Below are positions 47,153-55,856 of a stretch of DNA of 57,501 nt, piece by piece. Every line of letters starts with the position of its first letter. The first letter of the stretch is position 1. Under the pieces are notes generated by a model. It searched no databases, was not told the origin of the DNA, and saw nothing but the letters and a program-made list of their open reading frames with translations. The position numbers and the translations under genes were made by a program. Source of the DNA: Verrucomicrobiota bacterium (GTDB lineage Bacteria; Verrucomicrobiota; Verrucomicrobiia; Chthoniobacterales; JAFAMB01); contig JAFBAP010000022.1 in the NCBI GenBank assembly GCA_019247695.1, positions 1-57,501 on the forward strand, written 5' to 3'.

Positions 47153-48196
47153 ATGAAAGCCGCGCTGTTATACGAGTACGACACCAGCCTGGCCAGCCCC
47201 GACTACGTCAAGCTGGAAGAGGTGCCCGAACCCCGGCTGCTCAACGACACCGACGTGCTCGTCCGCATCGGCGGCGCCGGCGTCTGCCGCACCGACCTCC
47301 ACGTCATCGAGGGCATCTGGCGCCAGAAGGTCGACGTCAAGCTGCCCTACGTCCTGGGCCACGAAAACGCCGGCTGGGTGGAGGAAGTCGGCAAGAGCGT
47401 CCACGGCCTCAAGAAGGGCGACCCGGTCATCTGCCACCCCCTCATTTCCAACTGCCACGCCCTGGAAGCCCGCCGCGGCCAGGACATGCACGTCGAGGGC
47501 AGCGAGTTTCCCGGCATCAACACCAACGGCGGCTACGCCGAGTTGTTGCGCACCGGTTGGAGCTCGCTGGTCAAGCTGCCCCAGACGCTGGCCCCCAAGG
47601 ACGTCGCCCCCCAGGCCGATGCCGGCCTGACGGCTTACCACGCGGCCAAAAAGGCCGCCGCCCACCTCTTGCCCGGCCAGAAGGCCGTCGTCATCGGCGT
47701 GGGCGGCCTGGGCCACATCGGCATCCAGGCCTTGAGCGCCTTGTGCGCCGCAGAGATCATCGCCGTGGACCGCTCCGACCTGGCCCTCTCGCTGGCCAAA
47801 GAGTGCGGGGCCCACCACACCGTCAAAGCCGACGAACATGAAGTCGAGGCCATCCAGGCGCTCACCGGCGGCAAGGGCGCCGAGGCCGTCATCGACTTCG
47901 TCGGCGAAGGCAACGCCATCAACGTCGGGCTGGCCGTCACCCGCAACAACGGCGCTTACTACGTCGTGGGTTACGGCGGGGAGGTGCGCATTTCGACCCT
48001 CGACCTGATCACCAGCGAAAAGCGCATCATCGGCAACCTGGTGGGCACCTACACCGAGTTGGTGGAGCTCATGGAGTTAGCCGATCAAGGCAAGGTCCAC
48101 CTGGCCACCAAGCATTACAAGCTCAGCGAGGCCAACCAGGCGCTCCACGACCTGCACGCCGGCAAGGTCAAAGGCCGGGCCGTGCTGGTGCCCTGA
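47153..48196 (+). CDS. Zinc-type NAD(P)-dependent alcohol dehydrogenase
   Basis: The 347-residue medium-chain dehydrogenase has catalytic zinc ligands C45 (GAGVCRTDLH), H70 and E71 (LGHENAG) and the Rossmann motif VVIGVGGLGHIGIQ. The structural-zinc lobe is degenerate: only C94 and C101 remain around HPLISNCHALEARRGQDMH. It closely resembles the alcohol dehydrogenase of propane/acetone monooxygenase clusters, recognised by GSEFPGINTNGGYAE. Those enzymes oxidise 2-propanol-type products. It heads a three-gene set with the amidohydrolase (65 bp gap) and DUF59 protein. Third positions are almost all G/C, unlike the flanks. Confidence 0.85.
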   Translation: MKAALLYEYDTSLASPDYVKLEEVPEPRLLNDTDVLVRIGGAGVCRTDLHVIEGIWRQKVDVKLPYVLGHENAGWVEEVGKSVHGLKKGDPVICHPLISNCHALEARRGQDMHVEGSEFPGINTNGGYAELLRTGWSSLVKLPQTLAPKDVAPQADAGLTAYHAAKKAAAHLLPGQKAVVIGVGGLGHIGIQALSALCAAEIIAVDRSDLALSLAKECGAHHTVKADEHEVEAIQALTGGKGAEAVIDFVGEGNAINVGLAVTRNNGAYYVVGYGGEVRISTLDLITSEKRIIGNLVGTYTELVELMELADQGKVHLATKHYKLSEANQALHDLHAGKVKGRAVLVP

Positions 48197-48261
48197 GCCA
48201 GCCGTTAACCCCAAACCCGTACGCACACGCACCCACCCACACCCCCCCTCCTTACCAGCAT

Positions 48262-49305
48262 ATGTTTACCACCAAGAACGGAGAGAACATCTTCGTCATC
48301 GACGCCCACATCGCCCTGTGGGATGGCAGCCCGGCCAACCAGCGCAACCGCCACGGCGAGGAATTCATCAACTGTTTCTACAACTACCACAAGATCAGCC
48401 CCAAGGAATACCTCTGGCCCCGCGACAAGTTCGAGCGCTACAGCGAAGAGGACCTCATCAAGGACATCTTTGAGGACGGCTACGCCGACATGGCCATCTT
48501 CCAGCCGGCCTACTTGGGGGAGTTCTATAAAGAGGGCTTCGGCAACCTCAAGCGCAACTGGGCGCTGACCCAGCAGCACCCCGACCGGCTGATCCACAAC
48601 GGCTGGTGGGACCCGCGCAACGGCGAAGAGGGCCTGGAGCAGTTGGAACGGGAGGCCGAACTCTACAAGCTCAAAGGCGTCAAGCTTTACACCGCCGACT
48701 GGAACGGCAGCTCCAAGGGCTACAAGCTCTCCGACCCCTGGGCGCAGCGCTACCTGCAAAAGTCCATCGAGCTGGGCATCAAAAACATTCACGTCCACAA
48801 GGGCCCGACGATCCTGCCGCTCAACCGCGACGCCTTCGACGTGGCCGACGTCGATGACGCGGCCAGCAGCTTCCCCGAGCTCAACTTCATCGTCGAGCAC
48901 GTGGGCCTGCCGCGGCTGGACGACTTTTGCTGGATCGCCACCCAGGAGCCCAACGTCTATGCGGGCCTGGCGGTGGCCAGCGCGCTGATCCACACCCGCA
49001 AGCGCTACTTTGCCGAGATCATGACCGAGTTGCTCTACTGGCTGGGGGCGGACCGCATCCTGTTCGGCAGCGACTACGCCATCTGGCAACCCAAATGGAT
49101 CATCGAGCAGTTCATGGAGCTGGAGTTGACGGAGGACCTGGCCGCCGAGGCCAACCACACCCTGAGCCTGGAGGTCAAAAAGAAGATCATGGGCGAAAAT
49201 GCCGCCCGGCTCTACGACATCAACATCGCCAAGCAGTGCGCGCGGCTGGGGCTGCCGGTCATCGAAGAACCCGTGGGCCAGGACGTCGGGGTGGGCGTGG
49301 GTTAA
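48262..49305 (+). CDS. Amidohydrolase 2 family protein of the monooxygenase-cluster type
   Basis: The 347-residue metal-dependent hydrolase-fold protein starts MFTTKNGENIFVIDAHIALWDG. The usual HxH of amidohydrolases is reduced to H16-I-A. Other motifs present are IKNIHVHKGPT, VEHVGLPRLDDFCWIA and the metal-site aspartate in FGSDYAIW. The same protein accompanies propane and acetone (MimABCD/PrmABCD-type) di-iron monooxygenase genes in actinobacteria, where its role is uncertain, perhaps maturation. Here the monooxygenase itself is absent from the window. The TAA stop is 5 bp before the next gene. Confidence 0.8.
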   Translation: MFTTKNGENIFVIDAHIALWDGSPANQRNRHGEEFINCFYNYHKISPKEYLWPRDKFERYSEEDLIKDIFEDGYADMAIFQPAYLGEFYKEGFGNLKRNWALTQQHPDRLIHNGWWDPRNGEEGLEQLEREAELYKLKGVKLYTADWNGSSKGYKLSDPWAQRYLQKSIELGIKNIHVHKGPTILPLNRDAFDVADVDDAASSFPELNFIVEHVGLPRLDDFCWIATQEPNVYAGLAVASALIHTRKRYFAEIMTELLYWLGADRILFGSDYAIWQPKWIIEQFMELELTEDLAAEANHTLSLEVKKKIMGENAARLYDINIAKQCARLGLPVIEEPVGQDVGVGVG

Positions 49306-49310
49306 GGCCT

Positions 49311-50045
49311 ATGGAGCCGGGGATGAAAGATCGGCCTGAGGACCGGGTGGAGCAGGTGCGGGCCGCCCTGGAGACGGTGACCGATCCGGAGATCGACGAA
49401 TCGGTCACCTCGCTGGAATTCATCAGCGCCCTGGAGGTGGGCGAACGCGGGGAGGTGTCAATCGAGTTTCGGCTGCCGACCTACTGGTGCGCGCCCAACT
49501 TTGCCTTCCTGATGGCCAGCGACATGCGCGACGCGGTGGGGGCCTTAAGCTGGGTGCAGGGCGTCTCGGTGAAGCTGTTGGACCACTTCAGCGCCGGGTT
49601 GATCAACCGGGGGGTGGCCTTGAAGCAAGGCTTCCGGGAGGCCTTCCCCGGCGAGTCAGACGACGACCTGGCGGTGGTGCGCCAGAAGTTCCTGGGCAAA
49701 TCCTTCGAGCGGCGCCAGGAATTGTTGGTGCGCCACCTGCTTGAGCGGGGGCAGCGGGCCGAAGGGCTGACGGCGCTGAGCCTGCGGGGGTTGCTGGGGC
49801 TGGCGCTGGAGGCCGAGGGCGACCGGTTGCGGGCGCTGTACGCCTTTGCTTGGCGGCGGCTGTGGCCGGCGTGGGGGGAGGAGCGCCTGGCCTTTGTGAC
49901 GCTTGACGGGCAGGCCTTGGTGGCCGGGGAGCTGTCGCGCTACCTGCGCAGGCTGGCGGGGGTGCGGCGCAACGCCGAGTTTAACGGCGGCATCTGCCGC
50001 AGCCTGCTGGCTGAACGCAAGGCAGACCTGCTCACCGCAACGTGA
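49311..50045 (+). CDS. DUF59 (MIP18-like) iron-sulfur assembly-type protein
   Basis: In this 244-residue protein an N-terminal DUF59 domain contains TDPEIDESVTSLEFI and RLPTYWCAPNFAFLM with the conserved cysteine. The C-terminal half is a helical extension ending in NGGICRSLL, as in the monooxygenase-cluster member of this family. DUF59 proteins help load Fe-S or metal cofactors. The ATG at 49311 is 5 bp after the amidohydrolase stop; MKDRP at 49323 is an alternative. The stop codon lies inside a LacI-type palindrome. Confidence 0.82.
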   Translation: MEPGMKDRPEDRVEQVRAALETVTDPEIDESVTSLEFISALEVGERGEVSIEFRLPTYWCAPNFAFLMASDMRDAVGALSWVQGVSVKLLDHFSAGLINRGVALKQGFREAFPGESDDDLAVVRQKFLGKSFERRQELLVRHLLERGQRAEGLTALSLRGLLGLALEAEGDRLRALYAFAWRRLWPAWGEERLAFVTLDGQALVAGELSRYLRRLAGVRRNAEFNGGICRSLLAERKADLLTAT

Positions 50046-50055
50046 AACGTTTCAC
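50042..50055. promoter_or_regulatory. LacI/GalR-type palindrome GTGAAACGTTTCAC
   Basis: A perfect 14-bp palindrome overlaps the stop codon of the DUF59 gene. Its 12-bp core TGAAACGTTTCA recurs exactly at the start of the SDR gene (53967-53982), supporting a real operator. Confidence 0.55.
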
Positions 50056-50070
50056 CGCAGATCTGCGGTG
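50053..50070. repeat. Perfect 18-bp palindrome CACCGCAGATCTGCGGTG
   Basis: It overlaps the preceding LacI-type palindrome by three bases and directly follows the DUF59 stop. It has no loop, so it is more likely a protein-binding site than an RNA hairpin, although it could fold in RNA. Confidence 0.7.
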
Positions 50071-50089
50071 GTGACGAAGGCACAATTGA

Positions 50090-50131
50090 CCAATCACTCC
50101 AGGACGGCATAACTGCTGTCCTGGAGATTGG
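50090..50131 (+). terminator. Long hairpin downstream of the DUF59 gene
   Basis: CTCCAGGACGGCA (50097-50109) pairs with TGCTGTCCTGGAG (50114-50126), with one G-T wobble, around a TAAC loop. CCAAT (50090-50094) pairs with ATTGG (50127-50131) after a 2-nt bulge, giving an 18-bp stem. There is no T-run, so it may be a terminator of a non-classical kind or an mRNA 3' stabiliser. Confidence 0.6.
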
Positions 50132-50376: not shown

Positions 50377-50404
50377 TTGACATGCCCAAGAGTTTCTCTA
50401 TCAT
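50377..50404 (+). promoter_or_regulatory. Promoter candidate for the DeoR gene
   Basis: TTGACA (50377-50382) and TATCAT (50399-50404) are spaced 16 nt apart. The consensus -35 and a near-consensus -10 lie between two similar operator-like sites, which suggests autoregulation. Confidence 0.6.
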
Positions 50405-50444
50405 TCGGGACCTTATCTTCCGGCATCCTTGCGGAGATATAAAT

Positions 50445-50463
50445 AAAGTTCATTTATTTGAAC
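50445..50463. promoter_or_regulatory. Operator candidate O2 (AAAGTTCATTTATTTGAAC)
   Basis: GTTCA and TGAAC arms flank an AT centre. It lies just before the ATG at 50467 and repeats the AAAGTTCATTTA string of O1 about 91 bp away. Confidence 0.5.
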
Positions 50464-50466
50464 AAA

Positions 50467-51408
50467 ATGAATACGGATCCGCTCATTACCCCCCTTGGTT
50501 CCGAGGAAAATCTTTCGCGCGGTATCGACTGCGCCGCGAAATCTGCCTGGCGCCGGAACCGCCGGCAGCCCGATACCCCTCAGGGCGTCGCGTTGCGGAT
50601 CGCGGAGGATCGCCTCTGCCCGGTGCTCCCCGTCAAACGGCACCTTGAACTTTTAGGTCTCCTTTGCAACCGCGGTCAGTTGACGGTCAGGGAGGTGGCG
50701 AATCGTTTTGGAATTTCCGTGGATACGGCCCGCCGGGACCTCGACCTTCTGGCGCGTCAGGGCCGGCTTGCCCGCGCTTACGGGGGCGCCGTCGCGATCG
50801 AATCGCAGGTGCCGCAAGAACGGAAGCTTATGCCGCGAGCACCCGGCCATCGCTTTGAACCAACGCCCCTTGCGCAATCCCTTCACCAACTCGTTAAGGA
50901 CGGCGAAACGCTCCTCTTAAGCGGCGGTTCCGCCACGTGGTGTTGTGCCGAAGCGTTAGGCGGCCGGAGCATACGGATGGTCACCAACAGCCTCGACCTG
51001 CCCTTCGAACTGGTGACCAGTGCCGACGTTTACGTCCTTGGGGGAAAATGCCGCCCGGACGCGCGGCTGACGGTCGGCCCGGTGATGCTTTCTGGAATGA
51101 ACATCAACGCCGACTCTGCGGTCATCGGCGTTGACGGGATCACGGCAAAAGACGGGCTCACCGCAGACCGTCCCGAAGACGCCTTGATGGCTTCAGAAAT
51201 GATCGCCGCCGCACAACGCACGATCGTCATGGCGGATTCTTCCACGCTCGGCAAAAGGTCCTTCGCCCGGATCGGACCGATCGCGAGCATGCAGGTGCTC
51301 ATTACGGATAAAGCGCCGCCGGCCGATTTAGCAGATGCCTTACACGACGCGCGCGTGAAAGTGATCGTTGTTGGGCCGGAAGCGGCGAACCCGCTTGACG
51401 GTGACTGA
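50467..51408 (+). CDS. DeoR family transcriptional regulator
   Basis: The 313-residue regulator has a DeoR HTH (LTVREVANRFGISVDTARRDLDLLARQGRLARAYGGAV) at about residues 73-109, then the phosphosugar-sensing domain with LLSGGSATWCCAEAL, MVTNSLDLPFEL, VIGVDGITAKDGLTA and MADSSTLGKRSF. The HTH normally begins within ten residues of the start; here about 58 residues precede it. Either the protein has an unusual N-terminal extension or the true start is internal (a TTG at 50591 is in frame). No Shine-Dalgarno is seen at 50467. It probably controls the following polyol-type genes and itself. Confidence 0.85.
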   Translation: MNTDPLITPLGSEENLSRGIDCAAKSAWRRNRRQPDTPQGVALRIAEDRLCPVLPVKRHLELLGLLCNRGQLTVREVANRFGISVDTARRDLDLLARQGRLARAYGGAVAIESQVPQERKLMPRAPGHRFEPTPLAQSLHQLVKDGETLLLSGGSATWCCAEALGGRSIRMVTNSLDLPFELVTSADVYVLGGKCRPDARLTVGPVMLSGMNINADSAVIGVDGITAKDGLTADRPEDALMASEMIAAAQRTIVMADSSTLGKRSFARIGPIASMQVLITDKAPPADLADALHDARVKVIVVGPEAANPLDGD

Positions 51409-52215
51409 TGTCCAGCACGTCCCAGAGCACAAAGATAACTCTAAGCGACCGTTTTTCGAAGGTAGGACGTGCCGTTCTATGCTGCACCATGCCATTCTAT
51501 GCAGCTCACCGTCAACTAACCATGCATCTATACCGGCGAATGGTGAATTGTGGTCCTAAACTATCTCTGCCAACAACTCCCGTCTCTCTGCAGCAACGTG
51601 CCGTTCTATGCACTTCTGAACGCGGAAGCGCACCGCACGGGCGGCGCGGCGATGGGCAAAGGAAGGAAAAAATCTTTTCTGTCAACGTAAAATCGATTGA
51701 CGTAGGCGCAGCGTTAATCTTAGCTAGGTTCGGAGCTTAAGCTTACCTAAAGTTGCTCTTTATGAATGTCTCCCCCCTGAGTTCCTTCCCCCTTAAGAAA
51801 GCCCCTGGTCAAGGTCCTTTCGGAGGATTGACGTCGTACGACGAGCTACCCGCACCCGGTTGAGTCATCTTTCGTTCCGGCAGGACGCAAATCAGGTAAA
51901 CAACACACCAGCATACAGCCAGGCACGCGTGAATGGCCGCCGCATAAAGGCCACGTTAGTTAGGTTCGATCAAGGCGGAGCCGGGGCGGCTGTTGGCCGC
52001 AAACCCGCGCATATTTTCCTGCCGATGAATGACGCGGATGCAGAAGTGGGATTCGGTGCCTGGCGGCGGAAGGCGAACCAAGCCGCCGATCGACTCCTTT
52101 TACGCAGCGGTAGGTCCGTTGAAACGTTCAGGGGCTGTCGGCATGCAGAACGGGACGGACGGCAAACAACTTAACAACATACAATCTGGGTCATAATAGG
52201 TAATAGGACAAGCAT
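51409..52215. other. Long non-coding region before the zinc dehydrogenase
   Basis: No gene is supported in these 807 bases. It contains three copies of GCCRTTCTATGC (51471-51482, 51491-51502, 51600-51611), a palindrome AGCTTAAGCT near 51734, and TTGAAACGTTCA at about 52119, which is one base short of the TGAAACGTTTCA palindrome found elsewhere. An untranslated leader or small RNA is possible. Confidence 0.45.
51471..51611. repeat. Three copies of GCCRTTCTATGC
   Basis: Copies lie at 51471-51482, 51491-51502 and 51600-51611, all on the plus strand; the second has A in place of G. Spacing is 20 and 109 bp. They could be binding sites or remnants of a duplicated segment. Confidence 0.6.
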
Positions 52216-53301
52216 ATGAAAGCGCTTCGTTTTCACGGCCGGAAAGACTTGCGGGTGGACGACGTGGAGGATCCGAAGTCATGCGGGCCTCACCAGGTTC
52301 TGGTTAAAAACTCCTATTGCGGCATTTGCGGGACTGACCTGCACGAGTATTTGCACGGTCCGATCCAAATCCCGCAGAAGCCCCACCCCTTCTCAAAAGC
52401 GGTCCTCCCGTTGATACTCGGGCACGAATTTTCCGGCGTGGTTGAGGCGGTTGGGCCCGAGGTGCAAAGCGTCCACCCCGGGGATCACGTTTCCATTCAA
52501 CCCAACGTCATCCCGGGCGGAGACTACTTCGACCGGCGCGGCTGGAGTCATCTGAGTGATAACCTGTCGGTGGTCGGCTTAAGTTACCCGTGGGGCGGCA
52601 TGGCCGAGCGCTGCCTGGTCTACGATTACAACGTCGCCAAACTGCCGCCCGAGGTCTCCGATGAGCAGGGCGCGATGATCGAACCGGCCGCCGTCGCGGT
52701 TAATGCGATTGAAAATGGGGACCTGAAGGCCGGAGACACGATCCTCATCACCGGCGGTGGGCCCATCGGGGCGCTGGTTGGGATGGCAGCCTCCGCAGCC
52801 GGTGCATCAAAAATCTTTCTTTCGGAACCGAACCCGGTCCGCCGCGAATTCCTGGCCTCCTGGGACGTGTTCACCGGCATTTACGACCCGTTAAGCCAGG
52901 ACGTGCCCGCGCTTGTGCGGGAACAGACCGAGAGCGGCGTCGGGGTGGACGTCGCGGTCGAATGCGTCGGCAACGAGAGAGCGCTCGCAACGTGCATGGA
53001 TGCGGTGCGTCGTCGCGGGACCGTGGTTCAGGTAGGCCTCCCCACGCGCCCCGCAAACATAGACTTGCACAAGCTCGTGACCAAAGATCTTTCCTATCGC
53101 GGCAGTTGGGCCTATAAGAACACGGCATGGCCAAAGGTGATCGGCCTCGTTGCCTCCGGCAAGCTGCCCGTCGAAAAGGCCATCACCGGTAAGGTCAAAC
53201 TCGACGCGGCGGTCTCGCAAGGCTTTGACGCGCTGGCGGCCCCCGACAGCGCTCACATCAAGATCCTCGTGGAGGCACCTTCACATACAGCTACCCCGTA
53301 A
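52216..53301 (+). CDS. Zinc-type polyol/2,3-butanediol dehydrogenase
   Basis: The 361-residue medium-chain dehydrogenase has catalytic zinc ligands C38 (CGICGTDLHEY), H70 and E71 (LGHEFSG), and the Rossmann motif ITGGGPIGALVG. Long loops after the active-site cysteine are typical of (R,R)-butanediol and sorbitol dehydrogenases. The structural-zinc cysteines are absent; the region reads PNVIPGGDYFDRRGW. It would oxidise a secondary alcohol of a sugar alcohol or diol. It follows the DeoR gene by 807 bp and precedes an internally deleted copy of itself. Confidence 0.85.
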   Translation: MKALRFHGRKDLRVDDVEDPKSCGPHQVLVKNSYCGICGTDLHEYLHGPIQIPQKPHPFSKAVLPLILGHEFSGVVEAVGPEVQSVHPGDHVSIQPNVIPGGDYFDRRGWSHLSDNLSVVGLSYPWGGMAERCLVYDYNVAKLPPEVSDEQGAMIEPAAVAVNAIENGDLKAGDTILITGGGPIGALVGMAASAAGASKIFLSEPNPVRREFLASWDVFTGIYDPLSQDVPALVREQTESGVGVDVAVECVGNERALATCMDAVRRRGTVVQVGLPTRPANIDLHKLVTKDLSYRGSWAYKNTAWPKVIGLVASGKLPVEKAITGKVKLDAAVSQGFDALAAPDSAHIKILVEAPSHTATP

Positions 53302-53690
53302 CCCTAAGCAGGCAACCAATCCCCAGGTATGACAGATAAATTCCCAATGGACGTTTCGGCTAGGCGTTACCGGCTGACGTTTCATTCGAGGGAACAACAA
53401 CGTCTACCCCGCCCTCTTCGACGGAGCCGGGCATCGCGTCGCTTTACAGTACACCATGGCGGCGTTCAACCGGGATATCGAATCTAACCTTTTGCTGAAG
53501 TACCGGGCCCACGTCCAAACGCCAGGTCTTCTGCTCTGCTTCATCGGCTTTAGTGAGGGGATCATAGCGGCTTGACATCTTTTTGGATTCCGTCTATCTC
53601 TATTGTCGCGTATTCCCCTCATTCGAACATCGTGCACATCCCGCATAGGGGTCACCAGATGAACACGCGTAGCAAATCGGCGGACATTCC
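53302..53690. other. Non-coding region with a promoter
   Basis: No intact gene is seen in 389 bp. Near its 3' end lies a good promoter (53572-53600). An isolated half-site GACGTTTCAT lies near 53377. Confidence 0.5.
53572..53600 (+). promoter_or_regulatory. Promoter candidate TTGACA-17-TATCTC
   Basis: TTGACA (53572-53577) is followed after exactly 17 nt by TATCTC (53595-53600). It lies 90 bp upstream of the dehydrogenase remnant and 365 bp upstream of the SDR gene, so it could drive the SDR-transporter operon through the remnant. Confidence 0.55.
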
Positions 53691-53930
53691 ATGAAAGCGC
53701 TTCGTTTCCACGCCATTAAAGAGTTGTGGGTGGAAGATGTGGACGAAAACCGCGCCGGGGTGAACGTTGCTATTGAATGCGTAGGAAATGAGAAAGTGCT
53801 CGCCACTATGGATTCTGTGGGTCGTCGCGGGACTTTGGTGCAGGTCGGTCCTCCCACGCGCGGGACGGCGATCGACTTGCACAAGCCGGTTGCCGTCCTA
53901 AGCAGACGGCCATCACCCCATCGCACATAA
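53691..53930 (+). pseudogene. Internally deleted paralogue of the zinc dehydrogenase
   Basis: The first 21 codons match the start of the gene at 52216 (MKALRFH...ELWVEDVDE). The next about 50 codons match its residues 240-288 (GVNVAIECVGNEKVLAT, MDSVGRRGTLVQVG, IDLHK). The end matches its 3' flank (CTAAGCAG). Thus about 650 bp of the middle and about 220 bp near the C-terminus are gone. Both the catalytic zinc and Rossmann regions are lost, so the product cannot be an enzyme, although the frame stays open for 79 codons. Confidence 0.85.
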
Positions 53931-53964
53931 CTGCCTGCTTATACTTATCTGAGCTACTGAATTT

Positions 53965-54750
53965 ATGATGAAACGTTTCATCGGTAAGACTGTGGTGGTC
54001 ACCGGGGCCGGCCGCGGCATCGGGTTCGGCATCGCCGAGCGCTTCGCGGAAGAGGGAGCGAACCTTGTGGTGGCTGATCGGGATCCGAAGGTGGAGGAAG
54101 CGGGCGAAAAGCTAAAAAAATCTTTCGGGGTCGGCGCCTTGGCCGTGGAATGTGACGTCACCAACAAGGCGCAAGTCGAAAGCCTTTATGAGCGGGCGGC
54201 GGCGCAGTTCGGGACCATCGACGTTTCGGTCCAGAACGCCGGTGTCATCACGATTGCCCAACTCGAAAGCCTCACCGAAAAGGATTGGAACTTCGTGATG
54301 GCCGTTAACTCGACGGGCGTCTTTCTCTGCTGCCAAGCCGCCGCCAGATACATGATCAAGCAACGTTCCGGACGCCTGATCAACAGCTCTTCGGCCCAGG
54401 GCCGGCAAGGCTTCATCTATACCCCTCACTACGCGGCCAGCAAATTCGCCGTCATTGGCATGACCCAAAGCCTGGCCAAGGAGTTGGCGCCTCACGGCAT
54501 CACCGTTAACGCCATCTGCCCTGGGATTATCGAGACTGATATGTGGGCTTACAATGACGAACATTGGGGGAAGCTTCTTGGCAACTATAAGCCAGGCGAG
54601 CTGATGAAAGAATGGATTCAAGGGGTTCCCCTGAAACGTGGCGGTAATGCCAAAGATATCGCCGGGTTGGTCAGCTTTCTGGCTTCTGACGACGCCTCCT
54701 ACATCACCGGCCAAGCGGTCAACGTCGATGGAGGGCTGGTGATGTCTTGA
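53965..54750 (+). CDS. Short-chain dehydrogenase/reductase (polyol/diol type)
   Basis: The 261-residue classical SDR has the TGAGRGIG cofactor motif (13-20), NAG (91-93), the active-site serine in INSSSAQG (S142/143), Y156 and K160 in YAASK, and ITGQAVNVDGG near the C-terminus. Relatives include meso-butanediol, sorbitol and glucitol-6-phosphate dehydrogenases. The ATG at 53965 or 53968 lies within a perfect 16-bp palindrome, so a repressor could block initiation. It is followed by the binding-protein gene after 125 bp. Confidence 0.88.
   Translation: MMKRFIGKTVVVTGAGRGIGFGIAERFAEEGANLVVADRDPKVEEAGEKLKKSFGVGALAVECDVTNKAQVESLYERAAAQFGTIDVSVQNAGVITIAQLESLTEKDWNFVMAVNSTGVFLCCQAAARYMIKQRSGRLINSSSAQGRQGFIYTPHYAASKFAVIGMTQSLAKELAPHGITVNAICPGIIETDMWAYNDEHWGKLLGNYKPGELMKEWIQGVPLKRGGNAKDIAGLVSFLASDDASYITGQAVNVDGGLVMS
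53967..53982. promoter_or_regulatory. Perfect 16-bp palindrome GATGAAACGTTTCATC
   Basis: It overlaps the SDR start codons and shares the exact core TGAAACGTTTCA with the palindrome at 50042-50055. The site is within coding sequence (Met-Lys-Arg-Phe-Ile), so coincidence cannot be excluded. Confidence 0.5.
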
Positions 54751-54875
54751 GTGCGGAGCGACTGGAGAACCGGGCGGCGGCCAACGCACCGGAGCGCCGG
54801 CCGCTGCTTTGTAAAAAAGGATAAGAAAAGAGATAAACACGAAAGACGACAAATCATAACTCAGTCGATGCCATC

Positions 54876-55856
54876 ATGAAGACGACAAAAATTGTTCCCC
54901 TGCTCGCCGTTGCGGGTCTGGTTTTTTGTACCGCGGCAATCGCGGCGGATCAGCCCGAAGCCGCGCCGCTGAAACCGATCAACAAAAAGCTGACTTTCAT
55001 TTACATCCCGAAGCTTGTTCACCCTTGGTATGAGGAAGTAAAGCGGGGCGTCGAGTACGGCATTCAGGAAGTGAAAAAGGAAGGCATTGACGTTGAGTAC
55101 ATCTGGGACGCACCGGCCCAGGCCGATGTTGATGAAGAAAACCGGAAGATCGAGGCCGCCATCTCCCGCAAGCCGGACGGATTGTGCGTTTCGTGTCTGG
55201 ACCCGGCTACCAACGCCCAGTTGCTGGACGAGGCGCTCAAAGCGAAAGTCAACCTCCTGACGTTCAACGCCACGGGCGGCCCGAAATACCCGTTTGTCGG
55301 TCGAAACAAAGACACTGACGATGGCTACCAGTGCGGAAAGTACGTGGCCGAAAAGCTGGGGGGGAAGGGAAAGGTGGCCATCCTGTTGGGCAGCCTGACG
55401 GCGCCCGAGCACCAGGGGCGCGTCCAAGGTTTCAAGAAGGCGCTGGCGGAGTACCCGAACATCAAGATTGTTTTTGAACAACCTGACAACGACAACCTCG
55501 AGCAGGCGGTATCGGTCACCGAGAGCGCCTTGCAGGCGCACCCGGACCTCAATGCCATCTTGTGCTGCAACGCCAGCAACCCGATCGGGGCGGCGCGGGC
55601 CGTTAAAAACGCGGGCAAAGCGGGCAAGATCCTGATCGGAGGATTCGATAATCTTCCCGAGACGCTGGATTTCGTCAGGGAAGGGGTGATCCTGGTCACC
55701 ATGGCCCAGCGCCAATGGGAGATCGGTTATTGGACCCTGCGATACCTGGTTGCGATGAACCGGGGCCAGACGATTCCCCAGGATCATGATACCGGAATCC
55801 TGATGGTAACCGCCGACACCCTGAAGAAGATAGGGCAGGCTCAGGCCAGCAAGTAG
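54876..55856 (+). CDS. Sugar/polyol ABC binding protein (ribose type)
   Basis: The 326-residue protein has a signal peptide MKTTKIVPLLAVAGLVFCTAAIAA and the ribose-type ligand domain LTFIYIPKLVHPWYEEVKRG, CLDPATNAQLLDEAL, FNATGGPKYPFVGRN and ILIGGFDNLPETLDFV. It probably binds the polyol or sugar processed by the adjacent dehydrogenases. The ATPase gene follows after 119 bp holding a stem-loop. Confidence 0.88.
   Translation: MKTTKIVPLLAVAGLVFCTAAIAADQPEAAPLKPINKKLTFIYIPKLVHPWYEEVKRGVEYGIQEVKKEGIDVEYIWDAPAQADVDEENRKIEAAISRKPDGLCVSCLDPATNAQLLDEALKAKVNLLTFNATGGPKYPFVGRNKDTDDGYQCGKYVAEKLGGKGKVAILLGSLTAPEHQGRVQGFKKALAEYPNIKIVFEQPDNDNLEQAVSVTESALQAHPDLNAILCCNASNPIGAARAVKNAGKAGKILIGGFDNLPETLDFVREGVILVTMAQRQWEIGYWTLRYLVAMNRGQTIPQDHDTGILMVTADTLKKIGQAQASK

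Follow-up and report, generated by a model that had tools for sequence, protein, structure and literature searches.

An alcohol dehydrogenase, amidohydrolase and DUF59 gene trio as a putative metabolic module found with and without soluble di-iron monooxygenases

Genes for an alcohol dehydrogenase (ADH), an amidohydrolase and a DUF59 protein are already known as companions of soluble di-iron monooxygenases (SDIMOs; PMC9213486). Why, then, do the three stand together in a Verrucomicrobiota genome where no such oxygenase is seen? The locus lies in a stretch of 57,501 nucleotides (GCA_019247695.1, contig JAFBAP010000022.1), all of which was analysed and which we call the window. A preliminary description of this sequence had taken the trio for an orphaned accessory cassette of a propane/acetone-type monooxygenase, retained for a function that does not depend on the monooxygenase.

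The three genes form one tight plus-strand operon of 2.9 kb, closed by two hairpins (Table 1). The ADH and amidohydrolase genes are separated by 65 bp, and the amidohydrolase and DUF59 genes by 5–17 bp depending on whether the latter starts at 49311 or at 49323, which has the better ribosome-binding site. The hairpin region scored −50.5 kcal/mol (z −8.0), a value that no shuffle equalled; a T-tailed terminator was looked for after the trio and not found, the hairpins having no T run, and they are probably the transcript end or an mRNA-stabilising structure. Genes for a DeoR-type regulator, a second zinc ADH, an SDR and a sugar-binding protein lie just downstream (50377-55856), with a near-perfect sigma-70-like promoter at 50377-50404; they are a separate, sugar/polyol-like catabolic set.

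Table 1 Features of the operon and of its 3' end, in window coordinates
Feature	Position	Strand	Properties
ADH, zinc-type medium-chain	47153-48196	+	347 aa; ADH_N/ADH_zinc_N, above Pfam cut-offs
Amidohydrolase, Amidohydro_2 (PF04909) TIM-barrel	48262-49305	+	347 aa; Pfam 159.8 bits vs cut-off 26.4
DUF59/FeS_assembly_P (PF01883) protein	49323-50045	+	240 aa; 49.7 bits, above Pfam cut-off; alternative start 49311
Two strong hairpins	50048-50076 and 50090-50131	+	directly 3' of DUF59 stop codon

The trio matches the accessory genes of SDIMO clusters in Caballeronia and Rhodococcus, with identities to the Caballeronia proteins of 69% (ADH), 63% (amidohydrolase) and 44% (DUF59). The order in Caballeronia is ADH, SDIMO alpha, reductase, beta, coupling protein, amidohydrolase, DUF59 and GroEL, and because the majority of the 80 closest loci from public genomes share this arrangement, the trio had been rightly recognised as the accessory genes of PrmABCD/MimABCD clusters. 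Such group 5/6 clusters usually hold homologues of all three genes in one place. The window differs from them in its gene order (ADH-amidohydrolase-DUF59) and in what surrounds it: a tblastn search of the window with the complete Caballeronia cluster returned the trio and a weak match to a second ADH, and no hydroxylase, reductase, coupling protein or GroEL, just as the preliminary description had stated, the absence of the last three applying to the whole window. The SDIMO hydroxylase family (PF02332) was also absent from the genome of the window (5.19 Mb, 97% complete, 191 contigs) and from eight genomes of its family, all searched as incomplete assemblies, while known SDIMO genomes used as positive controls (G048-G050) were matched in the same search. 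Nor did the search of the window's incomplete assembly find a full SDIMO cluster lacking the accessory genes.

The reading that we favour, with moderate confidence, is a self-contained three-gene metabolic module that would predate the link with SDIMOs; its core would be an amidohydrolase metalloenzyme whose metal site is loaded or repaired by a DUF59 protein dedicated to it, and the ADH would be its third member.

The core pair was also seen among distant relatives. In haloarchaea (Natrinema, Natronorubrum, Haloarcula) and Rhodococcus oxybenzonivorans, a small DUF59 gene comes directly after the amidohydrolase gene, and no ADH or SDIMO stands alongside; in actinobacterial genomes, too, the two are paired without ADH or SDIMO. 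A DUF59 profile, built partly from five DUF59 proteins of these same loci, detected the partner beside 22/22 distant amidohydrolases, whereas it found none next to four unrelated Amidohydro_2 genes, of which the window's genome supplied two. In Shinella/Ensifer (L166:4854-6154, L225:2854-4157) a NifU-domain protein follows the amidohydrolase in place of DUF59, an apparent swap between types of iron-sulfur assembly protein. Because distant amidohydrolases keep DUF59 at loci that lack both ADH and SDIMO, the amidohydrolase is likely to be the client of the DUF59 protein and is better supported in this respect than the monooxygenase or the dehydrogenase; the replacement by NifU points both to this client and to a metal-assembly job of the partner. 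Metal-cofactor delivery, as proposed earlier, is a likely role for the DUF59 protein, but its recipient is probably not the ADH, which had been suggested beside another enzyme. The near-obligate pairing with DUF59/NifU predicts a metal-site assembly partnership, which would steer research away from regarding these genes, conserved beside propane/acetone monooxygenases, as monooxygenase chaperones, and SDIMO-free hosts such as the haloarchaea allow tests that do not depend on an oxygenase. In the freely accessible literature searched, we found nothing relevant on this pairing, no description of the trio without SDIMO, and no biochemistry on either protein of the pair or function assigned to them. 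A broader proposal, which we consider rather unlikely, is that amidohydrolase and DUF59 (or NifU) constitute a two-protein metalloenzyme system that is widespread among archaea and bacteria but has gone unrecognised, and of which Prm/Mim-type operons host one branch; its metal site would be unusual in depending on iron and perhaps using O2, and would require an assembly factor of its own.

The structure predicted for the DUF59 protein (pLDDT 94.0) has the CIAO2B/DUF59 fold followed by a helical C-terminal domain, and its best structural matches were CIAO2B (Z 12.3, 113 residues, 3.8 Å) and bacterial DUF59 proteins. Cys56 and Cys225 are invariant among 37 aligned members. The profile match and the conserved Cys place the protein in DUF59/FeS_assembly_P, with the fold and conserved Cys of SufT, PaaD and CIAO2B, from which it differs by the additional C-terminal domain bearing Cys225 and by its tie to an amidohydrolase gene. 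Against the NCBIfam equivalogs for SufT/PaaD it scored 24.4, 21.2 and 18.9 bits, where the cut-offs are 143.4, 180 and 202.6. The C-terminal domain (49650-50045), which holds the invariant Cys225, gave only a weak match to a recombinase (5hxy, E 1.7). Since two further DUF59 genes are present in the genome, the window copy is not the only one.

Alternatively, amidohydrolase and DUF59 might together act as an assembly factor and metallate a different enzyme, namely the SDIMO where there is one and the ADH or another oxygenase elsewhere. Such a service would fit the conserved place of the pair ahead of GroEL within SDIMO operons, the degenerate metal ligands of several amidohydrolases in the wider group, and the separation of the trio from the SDIMO within a single contig or record, as in genome G784 and in T. 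roseum (~370 kb apart on one plasmid). We nevertheless regard it as unlikely, since the pair stands without ADH or SDIMO at many loci and the conserved D14, H16, H179-K180, H213 and D271 would be needless in an amidohydrolase that is not catalytic. The abundance of the protein also speaks against it: the Mim cluster of Actinomycetospora chiangmaiensis encodes an amidohydrolase-like protein that made up 3.2% of the proteome on 2-HIBA, level with the oxygenase subunits (PMC7176365), so that the role of an enzyme suits it better than that of a chaperone. The Mim cluster of this strain (DSM 45062) contains Adh1 as well, both proteins being highly abundant; unlike the window genes, its copies are linked to MimABCD and the GroEL-like MimG, and no function was assigned to the amidohydrolase there (PMC7176365).

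In the self-contained module the amidohydrolase is presumably catalytic. An alignment with 39 relatives showed D14, H16, H177, H179-K180, H213 and D271 to be invariant, and the predicted structure (pLDDT 90.7) is a TIM barrel whose closest folds are metal-dependent hydrolases and decarboxylases (3irs; Z 27.5, 2.7 Å, 269 residues); a sequence search of the PDB gave no match. The protein thus has the Amidohydro_2 profile and barrel without the strand-1 HxH, its motif being D14-A-H16-I-A18 with Ala18 in place of the second His. It had been called HxH-deficient from the outset, which is true of the window protein but not of its family: 36/39 members, SDIMO-linked ones included, keep the second His. 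We therefore rejected HxH loss as a family trait, the window lineage being an exception, with Ala also found in its nearest relative, in Peribacillus and in one further actinobacterial copy. As one canonical ligand is lost, the metal site of the window protein may be different or impaired.

The same fold raises the possibility that the amidohydrolase is an O2-activating oxygenase akin in mechanism to AibH2, PtmU3 and SfbO (the AROs), with DUF59 standing in for a Rieske protein and the enzyme substituting for the SDIMO. The PF04909 family and fold are common to both, SfbO (8sm6) and DitZ (8uyr) were among the structural matches of our model, and iron-sulfur proteins adjoin AROs (PMC10811679), so an iron-sulfur-type partner gene is a further shared trait. 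The window partner is, however, DUF59 and not Rieske, and its operon contains neither a Rieske protein nor a reductase. The metal ligands of AibH2 include His340 and Asp342, at +3 and +5 from the beta-8 Asp (Asp337; PMC7782822). With these positions placed by residue spacing, not by superposition, His340 corresponds to I/L (274) in all 39 sequences, and the acidic residue 342 to a variable position (276) that is acidic in 10/39 and Gln in the window. As the beta-8 His and acidic ligands of the AibH2 type are absent, we did not class the window protein as an ARO, and an oxygenase of this kind seems quite improbable.

The third member of the favoured module is a zinc medium-chain ADH with ADH_N and ADH_zinc_N domains, in which the catalytic Cys45 and His70 are kept and the structural-zinc cysteines are mostly lost (NCHALEARRGQDMHVEG). 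The loss sets it apart from its best solved relative, the Aeropyrum pernix ADH (1h2b, E 1.8e-95), which it resembles over the full length. Because an Asp follows the second Rossmann strand (IIAVD), the sequence suggests an NAD-dependent enzyme. Such an ADH would interconvert a small alcohol and its carbonyl, making or consuming the carbonyl substrate on which the amidohydrolase would act. In propane/acetone degraders the SDIMO would supply the alcohol or hydroxyketone, and in organisms like the host of the window it would come from another source. A route from acetone to acetol and then to methylglyoxal via Adh1 has been proposed in A. chiangmaiensis (PMC7176365). We think that the module is most likely catabolic or detoxifying; a substrate of the small alcohol or acetol/methylglyoxal type is a tentative suggestion, and C3 alcohol/acetol metabolism is our best guess for the trio. 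Glyoxalase-type genes occur near several trio copies, with and without SDIMO, and none lies next to the window trio; these neighbours point to C3 carbonyl chemistry by a weak link that is only suggestive.

How widely does the module occur without SDIMO? Among sampled genomes, the amidohydrolase was found in 12/295 of the Halalkalicoccus phylum, in 41/400 of the Thermoflexus phylum (four of the 41 only at 34–35% identity) and in 1/388 of the window's phylum, namely the window's own genome; three more genomes of the window's family have all or part of the trio. No PF02332 match was obtained in 46 of the 48 other amidohydrolase-carrying genomes checked. The genomes with the trio together and no SDIMO found number at least 35, counting the window, two family members, a Bacillota MAG, two Thermoflexus, Acidocella aminolytica and Halalkalicoccus; the hosts are of Verrucomicrobiota type, Chloroflexota, Bacillota, an Acidocella and haloarchaea. 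Evidently the trio functions without SDIMO elsewhere, and the monooxygenase-independent function first proposed for it is borne out to this extent.

Nearly all SDIMO-free loci fetched contain all three genes together, in at least four arrangements (ADH-amidohydrolase-DUF59, amidohydrolase-DUF59-ADH, DUF59-amidohydrolase-ADH, and with a divergent ADH). When the ORFs of these neighbourhoods were clustered, no family beyond the trio was common to all phyla. A fourth conserved partner was accordingly rejected: an IclR-type regulator recurs among Chloroflexota and CO-dehydrogenase-like genes stand by some copies only, and a DJ-1 gene adjoining the Peribacillus pair is not recurrent.

In the amidohydrolase tree the window groups with its family (99% support), near the Peribacillus copy. 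A Verrucomicrobiota MAG (L002) is the window's nearest relative, and the trio contig of this MAG matches a window-family genome (L082). Between the window and this relative, pN/pS was 0.11 for ADH, 0.10 for the amidohydrolase and 0.27 for DUF59, and the trio is under strong purifying selection. GC3 of the trio is high (0.89-0.92), as had been noted in favour of acquisition as a unit, but this is weak evidence: two neighbour genes have 0.86-0.88, and the trio of the nearest relative (0.60-0.62) equals its neighbours (0.59-0.62). Recent acquisition is not supported by GC3, given that relatives within the window's family have these genes as a single clade.

In trees rooted on distant relatives, the SDIMO-linked copies formed distinct clades, proteobacterial and actinobacterial, set among the SDIMO-free copies. 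Three choices of outgroup gave this same picture, while the exact root moved, the deep rooting being unstable because the outgroup is distant. Since the SDIMO-linked copies form separate clades in this way, it is more likely that SDIMO operons took in an older module than that the trio is their leftover, and recruitment on more than one occasion would be the simplest reading of the trees. In Acidocellaceae, SDIMO-free copies branch from within SDIMO-linked ones, and these few look like later departures from SDIMO operons. The window trio could likewise be what remains of an SDIMO operon that lost its oxygenase genes, its accessory genes drifting or lingering, as its close similarity to SDIMO accessory genes and the seeming escapes in Acidocellaceae would allow; we rejected this decaying cassette, and with it the orphan status first assigned to the trio, as highly improbable in view of the purifying selection, the lack of SDIMO both in the genome of the window and in eight family genomes, and the many SDIMO-free clades (haloarchaea, Chloroflexota, Bacillota and the window's family) across which only the trio is conserved.

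Other arrangements were seen at single loci. A family relative (G004; L126, L127) has two amidohydrolase copies on two contigs, one by DUF59 and one by ADH. In G784 (L154, 2436-18600) a complete SDIMO-GroEL cluster has no amidohydrolase/DUF59 and the trio lies ~9 kb off on the opposite strand, and in G1317 (L216, 6167-19900) one SDIMO cluster is flanked by two different amidohydrolase-DUF59 pairs.
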